Assembly (NCBI GenBank): GCA_019096065.1
Contig: JAGUCH010000007.1
Span: 2,316,501 to 2,380,500, forward strand
Reading direction: 5' to 3'
Source: Paracyclopina nana
Taxonomy: Eukaryota; Arthropoda; Copepoda; Cyclopoida; Cyclopettidae
DNA length: 64,000 bases
Below are positions 5,725-64,000 of this stretch, piece after piece; positions within the stretch are counted from its first letter, which is position 1, and every line of letters starts with the position of its first letter. A model generated the notes under the pieces. It saw nothing but the letters and a program-made list of their open reading frames with translations. It was not told the DNA's origin and ran no database searches. A program made the position numbers and the translations under genes.

Positions 5725-6752
5725 GGGTGAACTTTTTATGTTAGAAAGTCAAGTCATTTTAAGTTAGACACGCCAAGTTACTTTAGATTAGACAGCGTCT
5801 ATGCTTTAGTGTAGACACCTTTTGGCATAGTTGGATTTTGTTATAAAGTCAAGATATTTTAATATAGACACCTTTTGGCATAGCACTTTTAGCATAGACA
5901 AATTTCATTGACTAGTGCACTTTATGATAGACACCTTTTGGCACAGTACTCTTTGAGTAGACACAAATTAGTGACTAGCATGTTTTATGTTAGACACCTT
6001 TTTGTAGAGTACTTTTAGTTTAGACACATCAAGACGTTTTAGGTTAGACACCTTTTGGTAAAAGTACTTTTAGCTTAGACACACCAAGACTTTTTAGGTT
6101 AGACACCTTTTGGCATAGTACTATTAGCTTAGACACACCAAGACGTGATTAGTAATTTGTCAGAGTGACAAGACCTCATTCAAGAAAGTAGACAAATTGT
6201 TGGCATTTTGCATAAAACAAGTATTGCTCTTTTACATTAATTTGAATTATTATGCTTTATGCTTTATGATGGTTTTCATGTAAGAATTATCAGGGACTTT
6301 TCTAGTGGGGTGTCTTCACATGTCTAATCTAATAGTGCTATGCCAAAAGGTGTCTAACCTAAAACGTCTTGGTTTGTCTAAGCTAATAGCACTATGCCAA
6401 AAGGTGTCGAACCTAAAACATCTTGGTGTGTCTACTCTAAAAGTACTGTACCAAAAAGTGTCTAACATGAAATGTTCCTGTCCCAAAAATGGTGTCTACT
6501 TAAAAAGTGCTATGCCGAAAGGTTTCTAACTTAAAGTATACCAATTATTAAGATGTGTCTAACCTAAAAGTACTATGCTAGTGTGTCTAAATTAAAACAT
6601 CTTGACTTCATAACAAAATCCAACTATGCCAAAAGGTGTCTATGCTAAAACATGATAGTCATGAAAAATGTGTCTAACCTAAAATGACTATGCTAAAAGG
6701 TGTCTAACTTATTCCGACTGTACAAAATGTGTCTAGCTTAAAGATGGCACCC
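5725..6752. mobile_element. ~1.03-kb foldback element built of short tandem repeats, 8-bp target duplication
   Basis: The left half (about 5750-6150) repeats a ~40-55-bp unit containing TTAGACACCTTTTGGCATAG. The right half (about 6310-6740) holds the same unit in reverse (CTATGCCAAAAGGTGTCTAA), separated by about 150 bp of unrelated DNA. The ends read GGGTG... and ...CACCC, and the element is bracketed by GTTCAGAC at 5717-5724 and again at 6753-6760, an 8-bp target-site duplication. Eight-base duplications are typical of the hAT superfamily, but the ends alone do not prove membership. The 74-residue frame at 6305-6529 is just the repeat read through and is not a gene. Confidence 0.75.
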
Positions 6753-26988: not shown

Positions 26989-27974
26989 TCATAGCTGTGG
27001 CATAAGGCTTTTATTTGGCTTGTGTCTACCAGCAATTGTCACACGGTGCATGACACGAAGGCCCACGAGGTCACGATCCAATTGAGTGTCAGGACCTGCT
27101 TCATGTCCCAGGGCTAAATTATCAGAGATAAGAAAGTCACCAGGCTCCCAATTGTGGCTGTACTGGATAACCTCATTTCTGACAATTTCATCATGAATTC
27201 CCTGGCTGATGAGGCTCGATGCATCTCGACTCAAATGCTGCTCCTGCACAAAAAACACCATTTTTTGTCTGCACGACAAATTTCTAGCTGAGTTCATAAT
27301 GCAGGAAAAAGCTCTTCTAAGTGAGCTGAAATTGGATGTGATACATACAGAATAAGAAATGAGATTATCATGCTCACGTTTGGCTTGCCCAAGTCTATGA
27401 TGTAATGATCAGTCATACCAAGATGGAAGCACATAGTAGGCTGTCTTGTCAAAGGATGAGGATAGATGGTGGGATGAATGACACCCTGATTTGTAGTGGC
27501 CATATACAGCCTCTCCCACAATGCTCGTTTTTCGCATTCCAGCCCCTCTATCAATTCTGTTAAGGGCACAAACACTGTGGGACCCCTTTGAGGGCACTCT
27601 ATAATATGGTAGATTGAATGTGAGAATGGCTTATTCTGAAAGCTGCCATCAATGTGCCACCCTGTTCTGCCCACATTGGTGCAGCCCTCAGACCTGTCAT
27701 TGGACACCCTGAAAATGTCCCTATGTGGAGACTTTGGATGGTTGTAAAAAGTGGACTCTATTTGGCCAAACCATTGGCTGATATCGAGTTGCCTTTGGTA
27801 GTGCAGGACACCCTGATTCTTGAATATCAAAAGCCTGTGTTCAGTGACATCACTTACGATGTCTTCTATCACACTGTCAGGAATGCTCTGGTTCAAATCC
27901 AGACCTTGGACAATCTTGCCAAGCATGTTAGGGTGTAACTCATACGCAGCCCTTTTCACAATTTGTTGAGCCAT
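26989..27974 (-). CDS. TauD/TfdA-family Fe(II)/2-oxoglutarate dioxygenase
   Basis: Exons 27974-27378 and 27243-26989 give 283 residues. The iron-binding WHIDGSF (HxD, about residue 107) and distal histidine in DNLALGHEA (about 250) are present, with the 2-oxoglutarate-binding Arg probable in LRVMHRVTIAG. SDVTEHRLLIFKNQGVL near residue 40 and SHSIYHIIECPQRGPTVFVP near 130 are typical of the taurine/2,4-D dioxygenase fold. Members hydroxylate small acids or sulfonates; the substrate cannot be told here. The joining intron was set by phase 0 at both borders (GTGAGC...TTTGTGCAG). There is no signal or mitochondrial presequence, so it is probably cytosolic. The protein looks closer to bacterial TauD-type enzymes than to gamma-butyrobetaine hydroxylase, which suggests, without proving, an origin by transfer. 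Confidence 0.87.
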
Positions 27975-28253
27975 TTCACCAATTCTAACTTTATAAAGCA
28001 CTATTCAGCAGCTGTAGCACTGAGCACAACATGAAGAGTTACCAGACTGGATTCAAAAGAATAACAACATTTATTTTTGGGACCAATAACTGGGGAAGAG
28101 TATTCAGCACTTGCAATCTCACAAAGTATAGCTCATTTTTGTGTCTTTTTTTCTTCTTCAGTCATTATACATATAACATTCAAAATAAAATCGGAGCATT
28201 TAAAATACATCTAAGCGTTTTTTTGCGCGTCTTCTTTTTTCAAATATGTGCCT

Positions 28254-31096
28254 TCACCAGACCTGACATTTATGCTTTGGATTCATGGGTGAGCCAGCTG
28301 GACACTGAAAAGCATTAGCGAATTCAGCAAAGTTGGAGAGTACTCCAAGCACTCTGAATCTTGCAGGAGAATGGCTGTCTTCGAGCAATTGTAACTTATT
28401 AGCTTGTGGAGTGGACACGGAACACCAAACCTGGCAAAAAAGTGCAGAGGAAGGTATAGCATTTCAATCAAAGTGGGCCTTCTCAACATGATATTATACT
28501 CACTTGTGCAAAAGAAAGAAAGAACAGTTGGTCATGAGTATGATTGAGGCCAGGGAGTGGAGGCTCCACGTTTGCTGACTGCTTGGCCAGCCAAGATTTA
28601 TAGGCAAAAAATGAGGTTTGCAGCCCACCATTGTCAGCTATATTTTCGCCCAGAGTGAGCGTTCCACTGACGTTTTGCGAAGAAATATGGTAGCTCGAGT
28701 ACTGCTTTTCCATGCATTCAGTTCTCTGCTTGAACAGCCAAAATGTTGCGTTGTTCCACCAATCTCTTTTATTGCCAACATCGTCATATTTGCTGCCCTA
28801 CAAAAAAACAGAGGATTATCTAATGGCTCTTTTTAGTACTTTTCGGCCAATTCCGCGCCACAACAAAATGGGAAAGCTTTGCCAGCAGTGACCTGAAGCC
28901 ATTAGGCTGAAAATGGCTTTTTCCAATTACATTTGGCGATTATCACATAAGGATAATCCAATTTGTGCAAACTAGTCCTTTCCTAAAGGTATTTCTCGTT
29001 TATCTTAACTTTTCGAGGTAGTTTACCTGATCATCAAAGGCGTGCGAAAGCTCATGTCCCATCACCACACCCATGGCGCCATAGTTGATACTCTTGGGAT
29101 ACTTGACGTTGAAGAAAGGAGACTGGAGGATCCCTGCTGGAAATGCAATCTGGTTTTTGGTGGGCGTGTAGTAGGCGTTCACCGTGGGCGGGGTCATGCT
29201 CCACTTGGTCCTGTTGACCGGCTTGTCCAACTTGCGCATGTTGTCCATGAAGGAGTACACGTGGGATGCCATGCAGTTGCCAAAGTAGTCAGTGGTGCTC
29301 ACCTCGAGCCCCTTGTACTTCTCGTCCAGCTCCGAGCCATTCTCGATGAACGAGGGGTAGCCAATCATGTCGGAGATGGCCCTGGCCTTGGTCAAGGCCG
29401 CCTCCCTCGTCTCATCGTCCATCCAGGAGAGGTTTTTGAGGCGGCCTTCAAAGGCCCCCTTGACACTGTCAATCATCTCCTGGGCCTCGCTCTTCGACTC
29501 ACCATTGAAGACCTTTCTGACAAAAATGGCCCCCAGGGCATATCCCAAGGCCGAGTCAGTGTCAGTGACGCACTCTCGCCACCGCTCAATGTGGCCTTCC
29601 TTGCCGAGCATGGCCTTTTCGAGGATCTTGCCAGCGTCCCTGTAGGGCTTTGACAGGGCGTTGCGCATGAACTTGATCACGTGCCACTTCATGTAGCTGT
29701 CCAGGGTCTTCCGGCCTTGGCTGGTGTTCTGGTAGGTCCAGATGATCTGCGAGAGCGCCTGGATGAACTCGTTGCCATACATGACCACCTCGGTCTCGTT
29801 GGTGATGCTCTTGTTGACCCGCTTGAATGCGTCCTGGAAGTAGCTCGTCCAGTTGAAGAAATTGGCCTCCGAGTGGAGCACTCCCAAGGCCTTTCGCCGG
29901 TACAGGTTCGAGTCCTCGTGGCGCTCCTCCTGGGGCACAGTGATGTTGGCCAGCTTCGTCTCAAACTCGATGATGGCCTCGACCTCGTCACGGATGCGAG
30001 CCTGCCACTCGTCATCAATCACAATTTCAGCATCTTCCGTGTCGTCCGCGATCAGCAGCTTGACCAGCCGGACCATGACCTTTTTCAGCGCCTCCACCAC
30101 TGGAGTGTAGTTGGCCTTCAAGTAGTGGTCCCTGGTTGGCAAGGTAAGCCCTCCTTGATCAATTTGAATGCTACAGTAGAAAGGTGTAATATCATTTTTA
30201 AGTTGGCTATGAGTCCTGAGTGCTTACACATGGAGCGTGGAGTTTTGGTCATCCTCACCAACGACCCAACTGAAAAAGCCATCGGCTTGCAAGTCGTGGT
30301 GAATCAGGGCGACTTTGGCGGTGAAGTTCTCCATCAAGGTCTCGTTGTCGAAGCTCTCTTGAGAATCTGGAAGAGGATCACGCTGAAATAGGTGCCACCC
30401 CACCAAGTGAGTCCGGATCATGTTGAGGAGAGGCTTGCCATTCAAAGCCTCAATGGTCCCATTGGGATCCAGACACGAGACGTAGTAGGAGTATGCTTTC
30501 CTCTTGGCGTTCTCATCCGGAAGCTTCTTGTCCACTTCTTCTAGAGCGTTTTTCATCACCAGTTGGTTTCGCTCCCAGAGCTTCTCGAACATGCTCCAAC
30601 TGCTATGGCCATCCGGGATGGGATTGAGTTTCTCCCAGCCTCCGCAAGCATGCTTATAGAAATCCTCGCATGGATCAACTTTGGGATCAATGTCCGATAA
30701 GATGGAAGCTGCCACAGTGATGCATTCAGGCGACAAGCACAAGTCGTCGTGCTTGTGCGTCGTCAAGGACACCGACCCCGTCCAGCCACGATCAGTCTCG
30801 CCAATGACAATCATGAGGATGGATATGATGAAAACGAGACCGGCAACGAGGACGAGCAGCGTTTGCTCCAGCCGAGTCCTGCCAGTCCATATGGGGTGGG
30901 CAGCGCCATTTGGCATGTGGTACCTCACTGTGGAGTCCACAAAGCGTACCCGGCCTCCACTGGCTGCGGTGCCAGCCATGGCCTCTCCTGGCTCGCACAA
31001 GTGATCCGAGGAGGCCGAAATGAGGCTGGCGCTTGCATTTTCGAGGCTACTTGCATTCATCTGTGCCTTGGAATTAATTGCATTTGTCGTTAACAA
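28254..31096 (-). CDS. Neprilysin-like M13 zinc metallopeptidase
   Basis: Exons 31096-30228, 30170-29027, 28797-28504 and 28430-28254 give 827 residues. It is a type II membrane protein: cytoplasmic N-terminus of about 75 residues, signal-anchor [20 protein letters not shown], then the ectodomain beginning around [14 protein letters not shown]. The N-terminal M13 domain is followed by [19 protein letters not shown], the zinc site [14 protein letters not shown] (HExxH) and the third ligand in [10 protein letters not shown]. The chain ends in the family-typical CQVW. All catalytic residues are present, so it should be an active ectopeptidase that cleaves small signalling peptides. Intron 2 splits exactly after DDQ. 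A later start at 31060 is possible. Confidence 0.95.
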
Positions 31097-33182: not shown

Positions 33183-38022
<4,840 letters not shown>

Positions 38023-58069: not shown

Positions 58070-59151
58070 ATGAGCGATGTGAACAGAAACGAAATTGGCA
58101 GTAAAGACAAAGTGGCGAAAAATGTAAGTAGATTCTTTTTACAGCAGTGTTTCTAAATAGCTATTGAAGGCTGTGTGAAATAGGTGCAAGTGCACGTTTT
58201 TGGGCCAACCATGGCGGCGATTTTGAGCTCTGCAATTACTGCCGAAGAGGATGAAACGCATGCCATTTTTGGCCAAGTCTCCCGATCAAAGGGCGAAAAA
58301 AGATTGCTCGACGAAGGCCGCGTTTCCAACGAGTCCGAAAATGGAAGCAAGGAGAAAATTGATTTCTCCGTTTCCGTAAGATGTCAGGTGCCAGCAACGC
58401 TTTTTGCGTAACATTTTTGCTGATTTTTCTAGTTTGTGGTGCGACTCCCGGTGAAGGTTTGGGACTCGGAGAGGAAAGAGTGGAGCCAGCCTCACTTCGA
58501 CCGTTGGAACAAGTACTATCAAGAATTGGTGGTGAAAGATGTCTACCTTGTCGGACTTGTCAGGCTACGACGATCAGCTCCTTTGGTGAGTTCAACTAAG
58601 TTGCCTTTCATTTCACGATTTTATCTATTTCTCAGAGCACTCCTTTTGCCATTCGAGACATCCGGCTGAGTCAATATTTATCCAAAACAAGGGACGTTCC
58701 TATGATATTGATGGCTGTCACGTCATGCCCACTCAACTCAAAGAGCGGCTCCACCTCGACCAACATGACTACAGGCTATTTCTTGTACGATAGGGAAAAG
58801 CAAGGATACCACTTTAGCCATGCCGAAGTCGTTATCAAAAACATAGGCTCCAAATCCGCTGCATTTCACCAGGCCCTCGACGAGGCCGTGGCTCCGAGGA
58901 GCTTCGAATTGTCAGATGACGTATGGCAGCCCTTTAAAGACTTGTCGATGACCAAGACGTCATTTGTTGAAAAAATTCACGCGCATTATCAAGACGAATT
59001 GGACTCTCTGGTATCGAGACTTGGCAGTGAACGTGCCACATCCGAGTCTTCTGGGGAAATGACAAAAAACAGCGAAAGCGAGGACTTGTTTGGCAACAGT
59101 CAAGATGACAGGCCAGTGAAGGTGCGAAAACGCTCTTTATTGGATGATTAA
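58070..59151 (+). CDS. Abraxas/FAM175-like MPN-domain protein
   Basis: Exons 58070-58123, 58184-58375, 58433-58585 and 58636-59151 give 304 residues. The start of a degenerate MPN domain is seen in FGPTMAAILSSAI...DETHAIFGQV, corresponding to the SGFVLGAL...TEGFLLGEV stretch of Abraxas. Further correspondence is YFLYDREKQGYHFSHAEVVIKNIG (with the [21 protein letters not shown] region) and, near residue 235, a coiled-coil start, HAHYQDELDSLVSRL. No JAMM zinc motif is present, as in all Abraxas proteins, which scaffold the BRCC36 deubiquitinase in BRCA1-A or BRISC. The C-terminus is basic (VRKRSLLDD) and lacks a final SPxF BRCA1-binding motif. The TAA stop overlaps the ABCF3 stop by 4 bp. Confidence 0.7.
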
Positions 59152-61865
59152 ACAGCGAGCTCCTGCTCCACAAGTTTGCGATACTCGTCTAGCCCACCCT
59201 CCAACCGGTGAACTGATCCTTTCGAGCACACCCATAGCTCAGTGCAGATGGCCCTGATCAGCCGTTCGTCGTGGCTGACAAGGACCACACCTCCCTTAAT
59301 AATAAATCGGAAAAGGCATTATGCAGATCCTATACTTAATTCAGTTAACAATACGACGAATGTCATACCTTGTAGTTATTGATCGCCACCCCCAAGGCTT
59401 CAATTGTCTGAATGTCGAGATGATTGGTAGGCTCGTCCAAGATTAGGAAGTTGGGGTTATGCGCGCAGAGAATGGCAAAGGCTACACGTGATTTCTGGCC
59501 TCCAGACAGGCTCCGAATCTAAAGGAAGGCGAACAACAAAGAGAATAATGCAGGGTGCTCACTTATTCTGCGGCTATTTTTTATACCTGCTGCAACGCCA
59601 AGTCCCCTGAGACTCCAAATGAGCCCAACATGCGGCGGTATTCCTCTACTTTCTTCCCGGGAAACTGTTTTGCAACCAATTCCACGGAGCAAATCTGGAA
59701 TGGAAATATTGCACCCAATGCAGTATAGATTTCCTCTTTTCAAGAACTTACATCCATTTCCAGTTGGTCGACGTGATGCTGGGAAAAGTAGCCAAACTTG
59801 AGGTTGCGATGGCAACTCCGAATGCCTGACGTCGGTGCGTTTATGTCCATCACCAGCTTGAGCAACGTCGTTTTGCCTGCACCATTTTCTCCCACCTAAC
59901 CAAATCAATTATTTCATATTCACGAGAACATGCGCGATCTTGACAAAATAGTAGCAGGCTTACGATACATATTCTAGATTCCATTGTGGCAGACAGATCG
60001 ACATTCTTGAACACCGTGGTATTTTGCCCTGGATACATAAAGGCCACCTCACTCAACGTCAAGATGGGACCAGACAGCTTCTCCACATCTGGAAATTTCA
60101 AATGAACTTCTGTGTCCTTCTCCACTGGTTGAAGTTCTGGAAGCTTTTCCAGCTGCTTGATACGAGACTGCACCAGGGAAGCTCGTTTCGCATTAAACCT
60201 AAACTTGTCTATGAATTCTTGCACGTGCTTTCTATGCTCCATTTGTGCCTCGTATTCCCGTTGTTGAGCCTTCATTCTTTCCGTCATGGTGTTCATAAAC
60301 TCCGTGTAGTTTCCCCTAGAAAATTATAGGCATATACTCTACATTCAGCAAACAGTCTATATTAATAGTCTTCTATTTTCCCACAGCCATGATATGAGAG
60401 GGACATGGAATATGTACCTATAGGCGTCTAGCCGTTGAGAGTGCAAATGGAGCATATCAGTTGGCACTTCGTCGAGGAAGTTACGGTCGTGGGACACAAC
60501 CAGCAAGGTAGTGGGCCAATTTTGGAGGTATCGTTCCAGCCATATAATGGCTTGAATGTCCAACATGTTCGTGGGCTCGTCGAGCAGCAGCAAGTCAGGC
60601 TTACAAAATAAAGCCCGAGCAAGTGCAAGCCTCATTCGCCAACCTCCGGAAAAGCTTTTTGTGGGACGAGCTTGCTTTTCAGCAGTGAAACCGAGACCTG
60701 CCAGAATCACCGCAGCACGACTGGGAGCTGTGTCCGCTTCGATGGCTTCCAACTCGGCATAAACTGCGGTCAAACGGGCGCTTAATTCAGCATCCGCCGT
60801 TCTGGAAAGAATGCATGATCAAAAGAGATCGTAGAATAAGAAAATTGCTCACCCCTCAGCCATTTTCTTGTTGATGTCAATCTCCTCTTTGAGAAGAGAC
60901 TCTCTCTTGGTGTCACTTTCTAGGACGCTCTGTAGTGCCAACGTGTCGTCACCGACAACTTCTTGCTCCACATGAAGAATAGACATGTGACTGGGAATCA
61001 CCAACTGACGGCTGGACATCATGTGCAACAGCGTGGACTTGCCGAGGCCATTGCGGCCCACGAGGCCATATCTGCGGCCAAACGTCAGGCTCAGATCTGC
61101 ATTCTTCAGGAGCACTTTTTCGCCAAAGGCCACGTCAAAGCCCTCAATTTTGATATCTTTCGTGGTGGTGGACCCAGCGTCTTTCTTGCTGATAATTTGA
61201 GAGGCTGAAGCCTCGTTAGTTTTATACCTATTTGTGGGTTGACTGGATGTATTTTCCTTCTTCTCGGCCTTTTTCGCCAACTGCTGCTCGGCCTTTTCCA
61301 GCTTTTTGGAATCAGTGTAACGCTGCAAAAATTCTACTTTTTCCCAAGTCCTGAAGCAACTACTTAATGTGAGAACTCACGAGGGAATCGTCCATTTTTT
61401 GGATCCACAAGCTGCTCGAATCATCCATGGCTCCAGAGGTAGCAACAATGGCTCCAATTTGAACTGGAGCGTCCAGGATTTTCCTTCCATTGTTTTTGAT
61501 GACCCCGTTTTGGCCAGACTCCGGCCTCAAAGTGTGCATCAATTGATCACACAACGATCTGTTATAATTGGCAAAACATGTCATTTTTTCAGCTCTTTTC
61601 TCATGATTGTAACATTATTCACCGTATTTCATCTTCCGATTTGTCTGGGGCAATTTCATTTAATACACTGCCAATGGCTTCGAAAACATCTTCGCCGCTT
61701 TCAAAGTCGTCGCAAGAAGTCTCGAGGACGCCTAAAAATGGGTTGCTTAACTTTAGAATCGACACGATTACCAACAGGAAACTCACTTTGTATGTACTGC
61801 GACAAATCCTCGTCCAGGCTTGGAATTTGCCGTTTCACGATTTGCGTGCACTCTGCAGCTGCCAT
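59148..61865 (-). CDS. ABCF3: ABCF3-type soluble ABC ATPase
   Basis: Ten exons (61865-61787, 61731-61623, 61558-61381, 61322-60853, 60801-60418, 60315-59964, 59895-59752, 59694-59587, 59518-59369, 59294-59148) give 706 residues, close to human ABCF3 (709). The N-terminal region with [20 protein letters not shown] matches ABCF3 rather than ABCF1/2. The first cassette has Walker [12 protein letters not shown], signature [16 protein letters not shown] and Walker [13 protein letters not shown]. The second has [25 protein letters not shown] and [12 protein letters not shown]. There are no membrane spans. ABCF proteins act in the cytosol on ribosome-linked or antiviral processes; the yeast relative Gcn20 aids eIF2-alpha kinase activation. 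All ATPase motifs are intact. Confidence 0.96.
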
Positions 61866-62402
61866 TTTTTGCAATTATTTCAGTGAAATTGCACTAACTA
61901 TAAGTTAAATCTATCAATTTTGAAGGACACGCATGCAAAATTAGCACACGGCACTTTCAATGAGTTTGTTTTGAAAACAGATCAAAAACAGTCACAATAC
62001 GAACCTATTTTCAGTAGAAAATCTCAAAATCCCATCTGATTTAGAGTATTTATGTAATAAGCTTCTGAAAATATTTTAGCAAAATTTCACAATTCAAGGT
62101 TTGCTCAAAAAATCAACATTCATATATCTTTAAATTCAATTGAGCAACAATAACTTGCCTTAGAAAATATAGCACGGATTGACAGCTCGCGGCAAGGAGA
62201 AACAGAAATAAATAACAGAAACACGCAGCTTTTTTACTGACTGGAAGTATTTCAGAAGACTACGCCAGTGAAATAGAAGGTAAGAAAATTTTTGTTCCAC
62301 CAACAACCATTTATTGCTGCCGATTTCTTGTGAAAACTGTGAAAAAATTCTCCTCCCCCAATTTGACAGTGATCTTAATTCAACTTAAGTCAGCATATAG
62401 TT
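61866..62402. other. Intergenic gap upstream of ABCF3, no gene seen
   Basis: This 0.54-kb AT-rich interval separates the ABCF3 start from the stop of the peptide precursor, both on the minus strand. No coding or repeat structure was recognised. Confidence 0.4.
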
Positions 62403-62994
62403 TTAATATTCAAAGTAATTCTTCTTCATGATTCGTAAATTCTGTAGCTGCTGTTGGCTTTGATTCCTCTTGTCCGATTTAACCAGCCATGCGTACTGCA
62501 GAGAATAATTATGATAATTAATGGAGTACTTCATGAATAGGTACCTTTTTCATGACCCTGATTCTGTCCAAAACGTCATTTCTGCCGTTAGGCGAGGCAG
62601 TTGGGTTCGACTTCTTCATGATTCGAATGCCCAAGCCATCGTTAACCGCTTGATTCTCATCTACAGCGAGCCTTTTCATGATCCTCAAGCCGAGGCTGTC
62701 CTCATTGTCACTGTCTTTCTTCATAATCCTCAGACCAAGTGTGTCCTCCTCGTCGTTGTCTTTCTTCATGATTCTGAGGCCGAGGCCGTTACTGTCCTTT
62801 TTCATGATTCGAATGCCCAAGTCTGGAGTCTCTTTCTTCATGATCCGAATGCCCAATGCATCATTGGAGCTTCGCTGGAACCGAGAGAGGCTGTCATCAT
62901 CAAGCAACTCTTTTAGATCCAAGTAGGAGGAGTGGTCGGCGTTGACAAGCACTAAAAGTGGTATCAGGGCCAAAATCAGCCCTCCTAGCTTCAT
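62403..62994 (-). CDS. Secreted multi-copy peptide precursor with LG(I/L)RIM-KK repeats
   Basis: Exons 62994-62545 and 62495-62403 (intron GTACCT...CTCTGCAG, phase 0) give 180 residues. A signal peptide (MKLGGLILALIPLLVLVNA) is followed by eight repeats ending in dibasic sites: DALGIRIMKK (residues 45-54), PDLGIRIMKK (57-66), NGLGLRIMKK (69-78), DTLGLRIMKK (84-93), DSLGLRIMKR (99-108), DGLGIRIMKK (119-128), a diverged VLDRIRVMKK (141-150) and QNLRIMKK (168-175) in exon 2. Acidic spacers (DNDEED, DSDNED) separate them, as in neuropeptide precursors. Cleavage at KK/KR would release peptides ending in RIM. No Gly precedes the dibasic sites, so no C-terminal amidation is expected. I recognise no named family; a neuropeptide or other secreted bioactive peptide is the best inference. 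Confidence 0.82.
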
Positions 62995-63234: not shown

Positions 63235-64000
63235 TTATGAAATGTTGTGCATGTCCATGTTGTCCATTAGCTTGAAGAAGAATTCTTGAGACAATCCAGC
63301 ATTGTCGAGCTTGGAAATGCCCTGGATTCGGCTCAAGATTTCGCTTCTCTTCTCATCAATGTGAGCTCTCAGGATCTTTTTCAAGTTGAGCTCTTCATAT
63401 ATCTATATAGAGTCATCTATGTGAGTGAACATTTGATTTTCATGCATGTCATTAGTACCTTTTTGACAAGTTCAGCCTTTCGTTGGTCCCCCCTGCATCC
63501 GTAGTTGGCTTCAAGGATCTGACGATGTTCCGGATTAGCTCTCTGCAAAGCCAACACAATTAGCCACGTCAATCTGCCTTCGTGAATGTCAGCATCCTCA
63601 TCCGTGTGGACGTAGCAGTTAGTGTAGTCCCTGGTGACCTCCACATAATAGCCCATCTCGTGGAGGATGTTGTGTGCCAACTCGTGGAGTTTCTCCTCGT
63701 GCATGCCAGCCAAGTGCAGGGCTAGGCTGATGGGCAGGCAAAAGTTCGTCTCGGACACGTGGCTCCTCAGCAAGGCCTTGTAGTTGCTGATGTTGTACTC
63801 ATCCAGCCTGTTCTCCTTCTGCAAACCGTACTAGTTTAATTCAAATTCATAGCGGTATTCGTATAGACTCACGGCCTCGAAGTTGACCAGTTTGTGGCCA
63901 AGGGTTCGGCCGAGGCAACGCAGCCTTTGAGCCTTGACCACGGCGTCGTAGAAGACGTGAGCGTTCGCACCGAAGTGGTGCTTGAGCAGGACGTAAATGC
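63235..64000 (-). CDS. Farnesyl diphosphate synthase-like protein with degenerate second Asp-rich motif (partial)
   Basis: Three C-terminal exons are visible (64000-63873, 63818-63459, 63402-63235); the N-terminal part lies beyond the right edge. IYVLLKHHFGANAHVFYDAV, LGRTLGHKLVN, FCLPISLALHLAG, LTWLIVLALQRANPEHRQIL and IYEELNLKKI line up one after another with the second half of FPP synthase. At the place of the second aspartate-rich motif (usually DDxxD) the sequence reads RDYTN, retaining only one Asp, and the following K of the NKCSW-like block is R. Canonical FPP synthases use those Asp residues to bind Mg2+ and isopentenyl diphosphate. This protein may therefore have changed substrate or lost prenyltransferase activity. 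The first motif (FARM) is outside the window. Confidence 0.82.

Follow-up and report, generated by a model that had tools for sequence, protein, structure and literature searches.

Does the minus-strand gene at positions 62994-62403 of the window (the whole stretch of 64,000 nucleotides analysed here) encode the precursor of a new peptide family, and, if so, which peptides would be released from it? The original prediction placed a multi-copy peptide precursor in exactly this interval, whose limits coincide with the ATG and the stop of a two-exon gene encoding a product of 180 aa (Table 1).

The gene and its repeat units

An in-frame TGA is found two codons 5' of the ATG of the peptide gene. 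The 180-aa protein retrieved only the two exons of one locus (contig C7) from its own genome (a 92-Mb assembly of 10 contigs, the smallest having 0.27 Mb and the other nine 6-18 Mb), and own-genome searches with the precursor and its relatives detected a single such locus. Upstream of the peptide gene there is a polyprenyl synthetase (FPPS-like) gene (63235-64000), and downstream of it an ABC-domain gene, which is ABCF-like by inspection (~59150-61870); like the peptide gene, both are on the minus strand. In crustaceans, the FPPS pathway results in methyl farnesoate; the position of the FPPS-like gene next to the peptide gene is probably a coincidence.

Table 1. Features of the peptide gene and its repeat units (positions in the window).
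Feature	Positions	Strand	Basis or details
Exon 1, coding part (aa 1-150, 450 nt)	62545..62994	-	open frame, ATG at 62994, GT donor at 62544, ends with MKK
Intron (49 nt, GT...CTCTGCAG, phase 0)	62496..62544	-	predicted from sequence
Exon 2, coding part (aa 151-180 and stop, 93 nt)	62403..62495	-	open frame
AATAAA, polyadenylation-signal-like hexamer, ~90 nt 3' of the stop	62310..62315	-	consensus match only
Signal peptide MKLGGLILALIPLLVLVNA (putative)	62938..62994	-	by inspection; V at -3, A at -1
Unit 1, LGIRIM-KK	62833..62856	-	translation
Unit 2, LGIRIM-KK	62797..62820	-	translation
Unit 3, LGLRIM-KK	62761..62784	-	translation
Unit 4, LGLRIM-KK	62716..62739	-	translation
Unit 5, LGLRIM-KR	62671..62694	-	translation
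Unit 6, LGIRIM-KK	62611..62634	-	translation
Unit 7, DRIRVM-KK (divergent)	62545..62568	-	translation
Unit 8, QNLRIM-KK (exon 2, divergent)	62421..62444	-	translation

The precursor contains eight R(I/V)M-K(K/R) units, i.e. six nearly identical LG(I/L)RIM units (LGIRIM and LGLRIM, three times each) and the divergent DRIRVM and QNLRIM. Eight near-identical repeats and a further NLRIMKK copy in exon 2 had been predicted; the total of eight is correct, near-identity applies to six of them, and the exon 2 copy is present as the eighth unit rather than in addition to the eight. The predicted KK or KR endings are found in all eight units (KK in seven, KR in one), and the N-terminus is signal-like as proposed, judged by inspection of the translation. 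All basic pairs follow a core, except for the KR of VKSDKR in exon 2. The stretch preceding unit 1 ends with RFQR, a furin-type site by inspection. Tandem Repeats Finder reports a 45-nt period across 62675-62786.

Comparison of the units with each other (eight units, 28 pairs, seven codons each) gave a pS of 0.87 and a pN of 0.13; for units 1-6 alone, pS was 0.83 and pN 0.08. As pS greatly exceeds pN, substitutions have accumulated at silent sites and the peptide has been retained, which implies constraint at the amino-acid level. The signal-like N-terminus, the eight units, the constraint on them and the existence of relatives with the same layout (see below) support the original reading, and the gene is thus likely to encode a multi-copy precursor of undescribed, non-amidated (neuro)peptides, with its processing and expression being predicted from sequence. 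That the peptides are neuropeptides, we infer. The same cleavage could as well provide peptides acting outside the nervous system (in a gland, in the gut, in reproductive secretion or as a pheromone): sequence cannot tell neuronal from other secretory cells, and multi-copy dibasic precursors serve non-neural secretions too. However, eight short peptides with one C-terminus, in a layout that is repeated in other clusters of relatives, are usual for the precursor of a receptor ligand, and we regard a non-neural role as improbable.

Relatives of the precursor

At least 51 relatives were found at E <= 10 in three protein searches (21, 37 and 44 proteins, 51 distinct; best E 2.6e-14). One of these searches was limited to the 7997 candidates with most words in common. 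The searches evidently miss members, since P0030, P0032 and P0034 were absent from the results of a search whose query rows included them. Single-linkage clustering, with thresholds of 60% for identity and 60% for coverage of the shorter protein, resulted in 20 clusters, one of which consists of the precursor alone. The 20 representatives possess 137 R(I/V/L/M)(M/L)(K/R) units, 8 in the precursor and 2-10 in each of the other 19. The third core position is occupied by M in 123 units and by L in 14 (the pattern admits only these two). The core is followed by KK (69 units), KR (23), RR (14), RK (3) or a single basic residue (28); a second basic residue is therefore present in 109/137 units and absent in 28/137.

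In the alignments, the core and the basic site recur, whereas the length and sequence of the spacers vary. Conserved repeats with diverging spacers had been anticipated for homologues, though the conservation of the units is partly built in, because the 19 other representatives were retrieved by searching with such units. Judging by the pN and pS values of the precursor together with the 2-10 units in each of 19 relatives, the recurrence of the units exceeds chance. Proteins in 3 of the 19 other clusters carry the label 'merc', which we take to stand for a marine eukaryote metatranscriptome; given this label, the genes of these relatives are probably transcribed.

Two unnamed predicted proteins are particularly similar to the precursor in their units. 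In P0012 (lgn), the (L/I)G(I/L)RIMKK unit occurs four times, between spacers that differ, and P0001 (ena) has nine units, most of them LG(I/L/M)R(I/L/V)(M/L)K(K/R), with spacers that diverge from those of the precursor. By inspection, one end of each of these proteins seems to be incomplete or wrongly modelled. P0034 (gene Tk08648, an unnamed predicted protein in EukProt) resembles the precursor in that its (S)(L/I)R(I/V)M repeats precede KK or KR and that G(K/R)(K/R) is absent, and it ends with a bare -DLRIL. Its cores are, however, mostly DS(L/I)R(I/V)M instead of LG(I/L)RIM, and it was found by profile only (E 1.3e-5). The genome of the copepod Tigriopus kingsejongensis was annotated with MAKER and SNAP (PMC5467011), in agreement with the maker/snap label of P0034, and from the name Tk08648 we infer that it comes from this species, although 'Tk0' does not occur in the main text of that paper. 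P0040 possesses two types of units, YG(I/L/F/V)R(M/L/I)M-K(K/R) and (S/T)RII-KK, so that one precursor may contain two kinds of peptides.

In a core-permutation control covering 11 of the 51 relatives, the six core residues were permuted alike in all units (150 permutations). Permuted cores reached the true score in 0/150 cases for P0001, P0005, P0007, P0012, P0028, P0030, P0035 and P0044, and in one (P0040), two (P0015) or three (P0017) of 150 cases for the others. The single-sequence scores of P0030 (E 120) and P0035 (E 420) against the precursor were not significant, and P0030, P0034 and P0035 join the family only by profile search. With its units masked, the precursor matched none of the 51 relatives (E <= 1000, full database size). 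Therefore, the family is held together by the units alone, and its distant members could be convergent; for the distant clusters, homology is a matter of the repeat motif only, as far as these comparisons go. Reverse searches in the own genome, scoring one or two candidates for each query, revealed the locus as the best match for P0001 (7.2e-10), P0015 (1.5e-5) and P0040 (0.008), and nothing significant with P0041 (E 3.63) or P0035 (E 4.52).

The C-terminus and predicted processing

None of the eight units of the precursor has a glycine preceding the basic site. A C-terminal Met lacking an amidation glycine had been considered unusual in the original prediction; the glycine is indeed absent, and in the predicted proteins this absence is common to the relatives and no oddity of one gene. 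The pattern used to count the units requires a basic residue after the core and is hence blind to amidated variants; the typical amidation signal G(K/R)(K/R) was counted separately and is present in 2 of the 20 representatives (P0012, P0029), never at a core. Furthermore, 5 of the 20 representatives end with a bare core (P0031, RVM; P0032, RIF; P0034, RIL; P0035, RIL; P0045, RIV), as do 10 of the 51 relatives, the ends being those of predicted proteins. Termination of proteins at a bare R-x-hydrophobic core supports the core end as the mature, non-amidated C-terminus; it counts against this that Met is found at just one bare end (two have L, one V and one F).

The bare ends bear as well on the possibility that the gene product is an uncleaved, secreted repetitive protein (structural or matrix), in which the KK pairs are part of a charge pattern. 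The single basic residue after 28/137 family cores would agree with such a protein, and cleavage of the precursor is predicted from sequence. Nevertheless, bare-core ends devoid of basic residues fit processing better than a charge pattern, and the core recurs together with its basic site while the spacers change in length and sequence, which makes an uncleaved protein very unlikely.

As the precursor of multiple peptides, the gene product would be a secreted prepropeptide, from which the signal peptide would be removed first. A prohormone convertase would cut after KK or KR, as well as after the RFQR that precedes unit 1; the basic residues would then be trimmed from the cut ends by a carboxypeptidase. 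KK is the less usual convertase site, which counts against this reading. About eight peptides of 10-20 residues would be released; they would have a free-acid C-terminus in common but differ in their N-termini, most of which are acidic (predicted peptides 1-8: SSNDALGIRIM, ETPDLGIRIM, DSNGLGLRIM, DNDEEDTLGLRIM, DSDNEDSLGLRIM, LAVDENQAVNDGLGIRIM, SNPTASPNGRNDVLDRIRVM and NQSQQQLQNLRIM). Acidic stretches had been predicted as spacers and are present. Since no basic pair is located between a stretch and the following core, they probably belong to the mature peptides as their N-terminal portions (e.g., DSDNEDSLGLRIM-OH) rather than being separate spacers. By analogy with peptide families in which the C-terminus is conserved, the common C-terminus may be recognised by a single receptor, most probably a GPCR.

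Whether these peptides constitute a new non-amidated hormone family in copepods, and perhaps also in other crustaceans, with repeated -R(I/V)M-OH C-termini and a receptor of its own, is in our opinion an even bet, because the copepod-type P0034 is linked by profile only and Met is present in one of five bare ends. If true, this would add a peptide signalling system, probably of planktonic crustaceans, in which a ligand could be matched to its receptor. A free acid, in most cases with Met, is an unusual C-terminus; as it recurs in several clusters, it could be used as a handle for peptidomics and receptor screens.

Known families and the genomic surroundings

The original prediction could name no family for the repeat core, and this agrees with the searches: the precursor protein had two matches in Pfam, both below the curated cut-off, and none in NCBIfam, and the papers that motif and name strings retrieved from 5.39 million open papers were unrelated, judging by title and abstract. 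Topical searches led to crustacean neuropeptidomes. The family may have been named before, for instance in Christie's copepod peptidome papers, which are cited in PMC4696782 and PMC5655441. The search against solved structures gave caltractin as the sole match (E 0.46), which we take as chance; two of the papers retrieved with LRIMKK deal with centrin/centrosomes, in line with this match.

Tachykinin-related peptides and orcokinins of arthropods are likewise encoded by multi-copy precursors with dibasic sites, and orcokinins are non-amidated as well, but the core motifs of both differ from those of the precursor. The C-terminus of tachykinin-related peptides is FX1GX2R-amide, and orcokinins are NFDEIDR-type peptides. 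The absence of an NFDEIDR-type string in the translation led us to reject orcokinin membership. A derived tachykinin-related precursor that has lost its amidation signal might be considered, as LGMR (in LGMRVMKK of P0005 and P0007) resembles the FX1GX2R-amide end and KK sites are present in tachykinin precursors. However, the cores of the precursor have no aromatic residue and carry two extra residues after R, the protein contains no G(K/R)(K/R), and a Pfam match above the cut-off is absent; such a derivation is therefore extremely improbable. Membership in the tachykinin-related family itself was rejected, as the cores end with RIM or RVM, lack the glycine and have no Pfam match above the cut-off. 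FMRFamide-like membership was rejected because of the core motif and the absence of glycine at all eight units. DXXRLamides are described as restricted to copepods, along with FXGGXamides (PMC4696782). What they have in common with the predicted peptides is an R close to the C-terminus, to which the name of these crustacean peptides refers. By name, they have an amidated RL end, in contrast to R(I/V)M without glycine here. DXXRLamide membership was rejected on the core motif and on the lack of glycine, found in 0/8 cleavage sites of the units.

TTAGG is the common arthropod telomere repeat. Among the ten contig starts examined, four (C2, C5, C6 and C7) have CCTAA arrays (= TTAGG); C1 and C10 start with different arrays (a CTGGC array in C1 and a GTGTTTGCT-like array in the 268-kb C10), C3 and C4 have no array, and C8 and C9 read N. 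Chitin_bind_4 has 80 matches in the genome. The TTAGG arrays and the Chitin_bind_4 matches point to an arthropod genome. A copepod is suggested by the relatives alone (the name of P0034 and the 'merc' labels), and the animal may also be a mite. A COX1 search gave no match (its control responded in 8 of 14), nor did an OS-D search (control 0 of 14). Elsewhere in the window, there are a paired-box (PAX) domain exon (1461-1865, minus; E 3.6e-63) and pieces of genes for a TauD-family dioxygenase (27294-28004, minus), an M13 peptidase (29000-30223, minus) and a carboxylesterase (34151-34687, minus). Positions 5734-6742 are occupied by tandem arrays (unit length 24-63 nt), and TTAGACACCTTTTGG-like strings are present in several of them, in both orientations.
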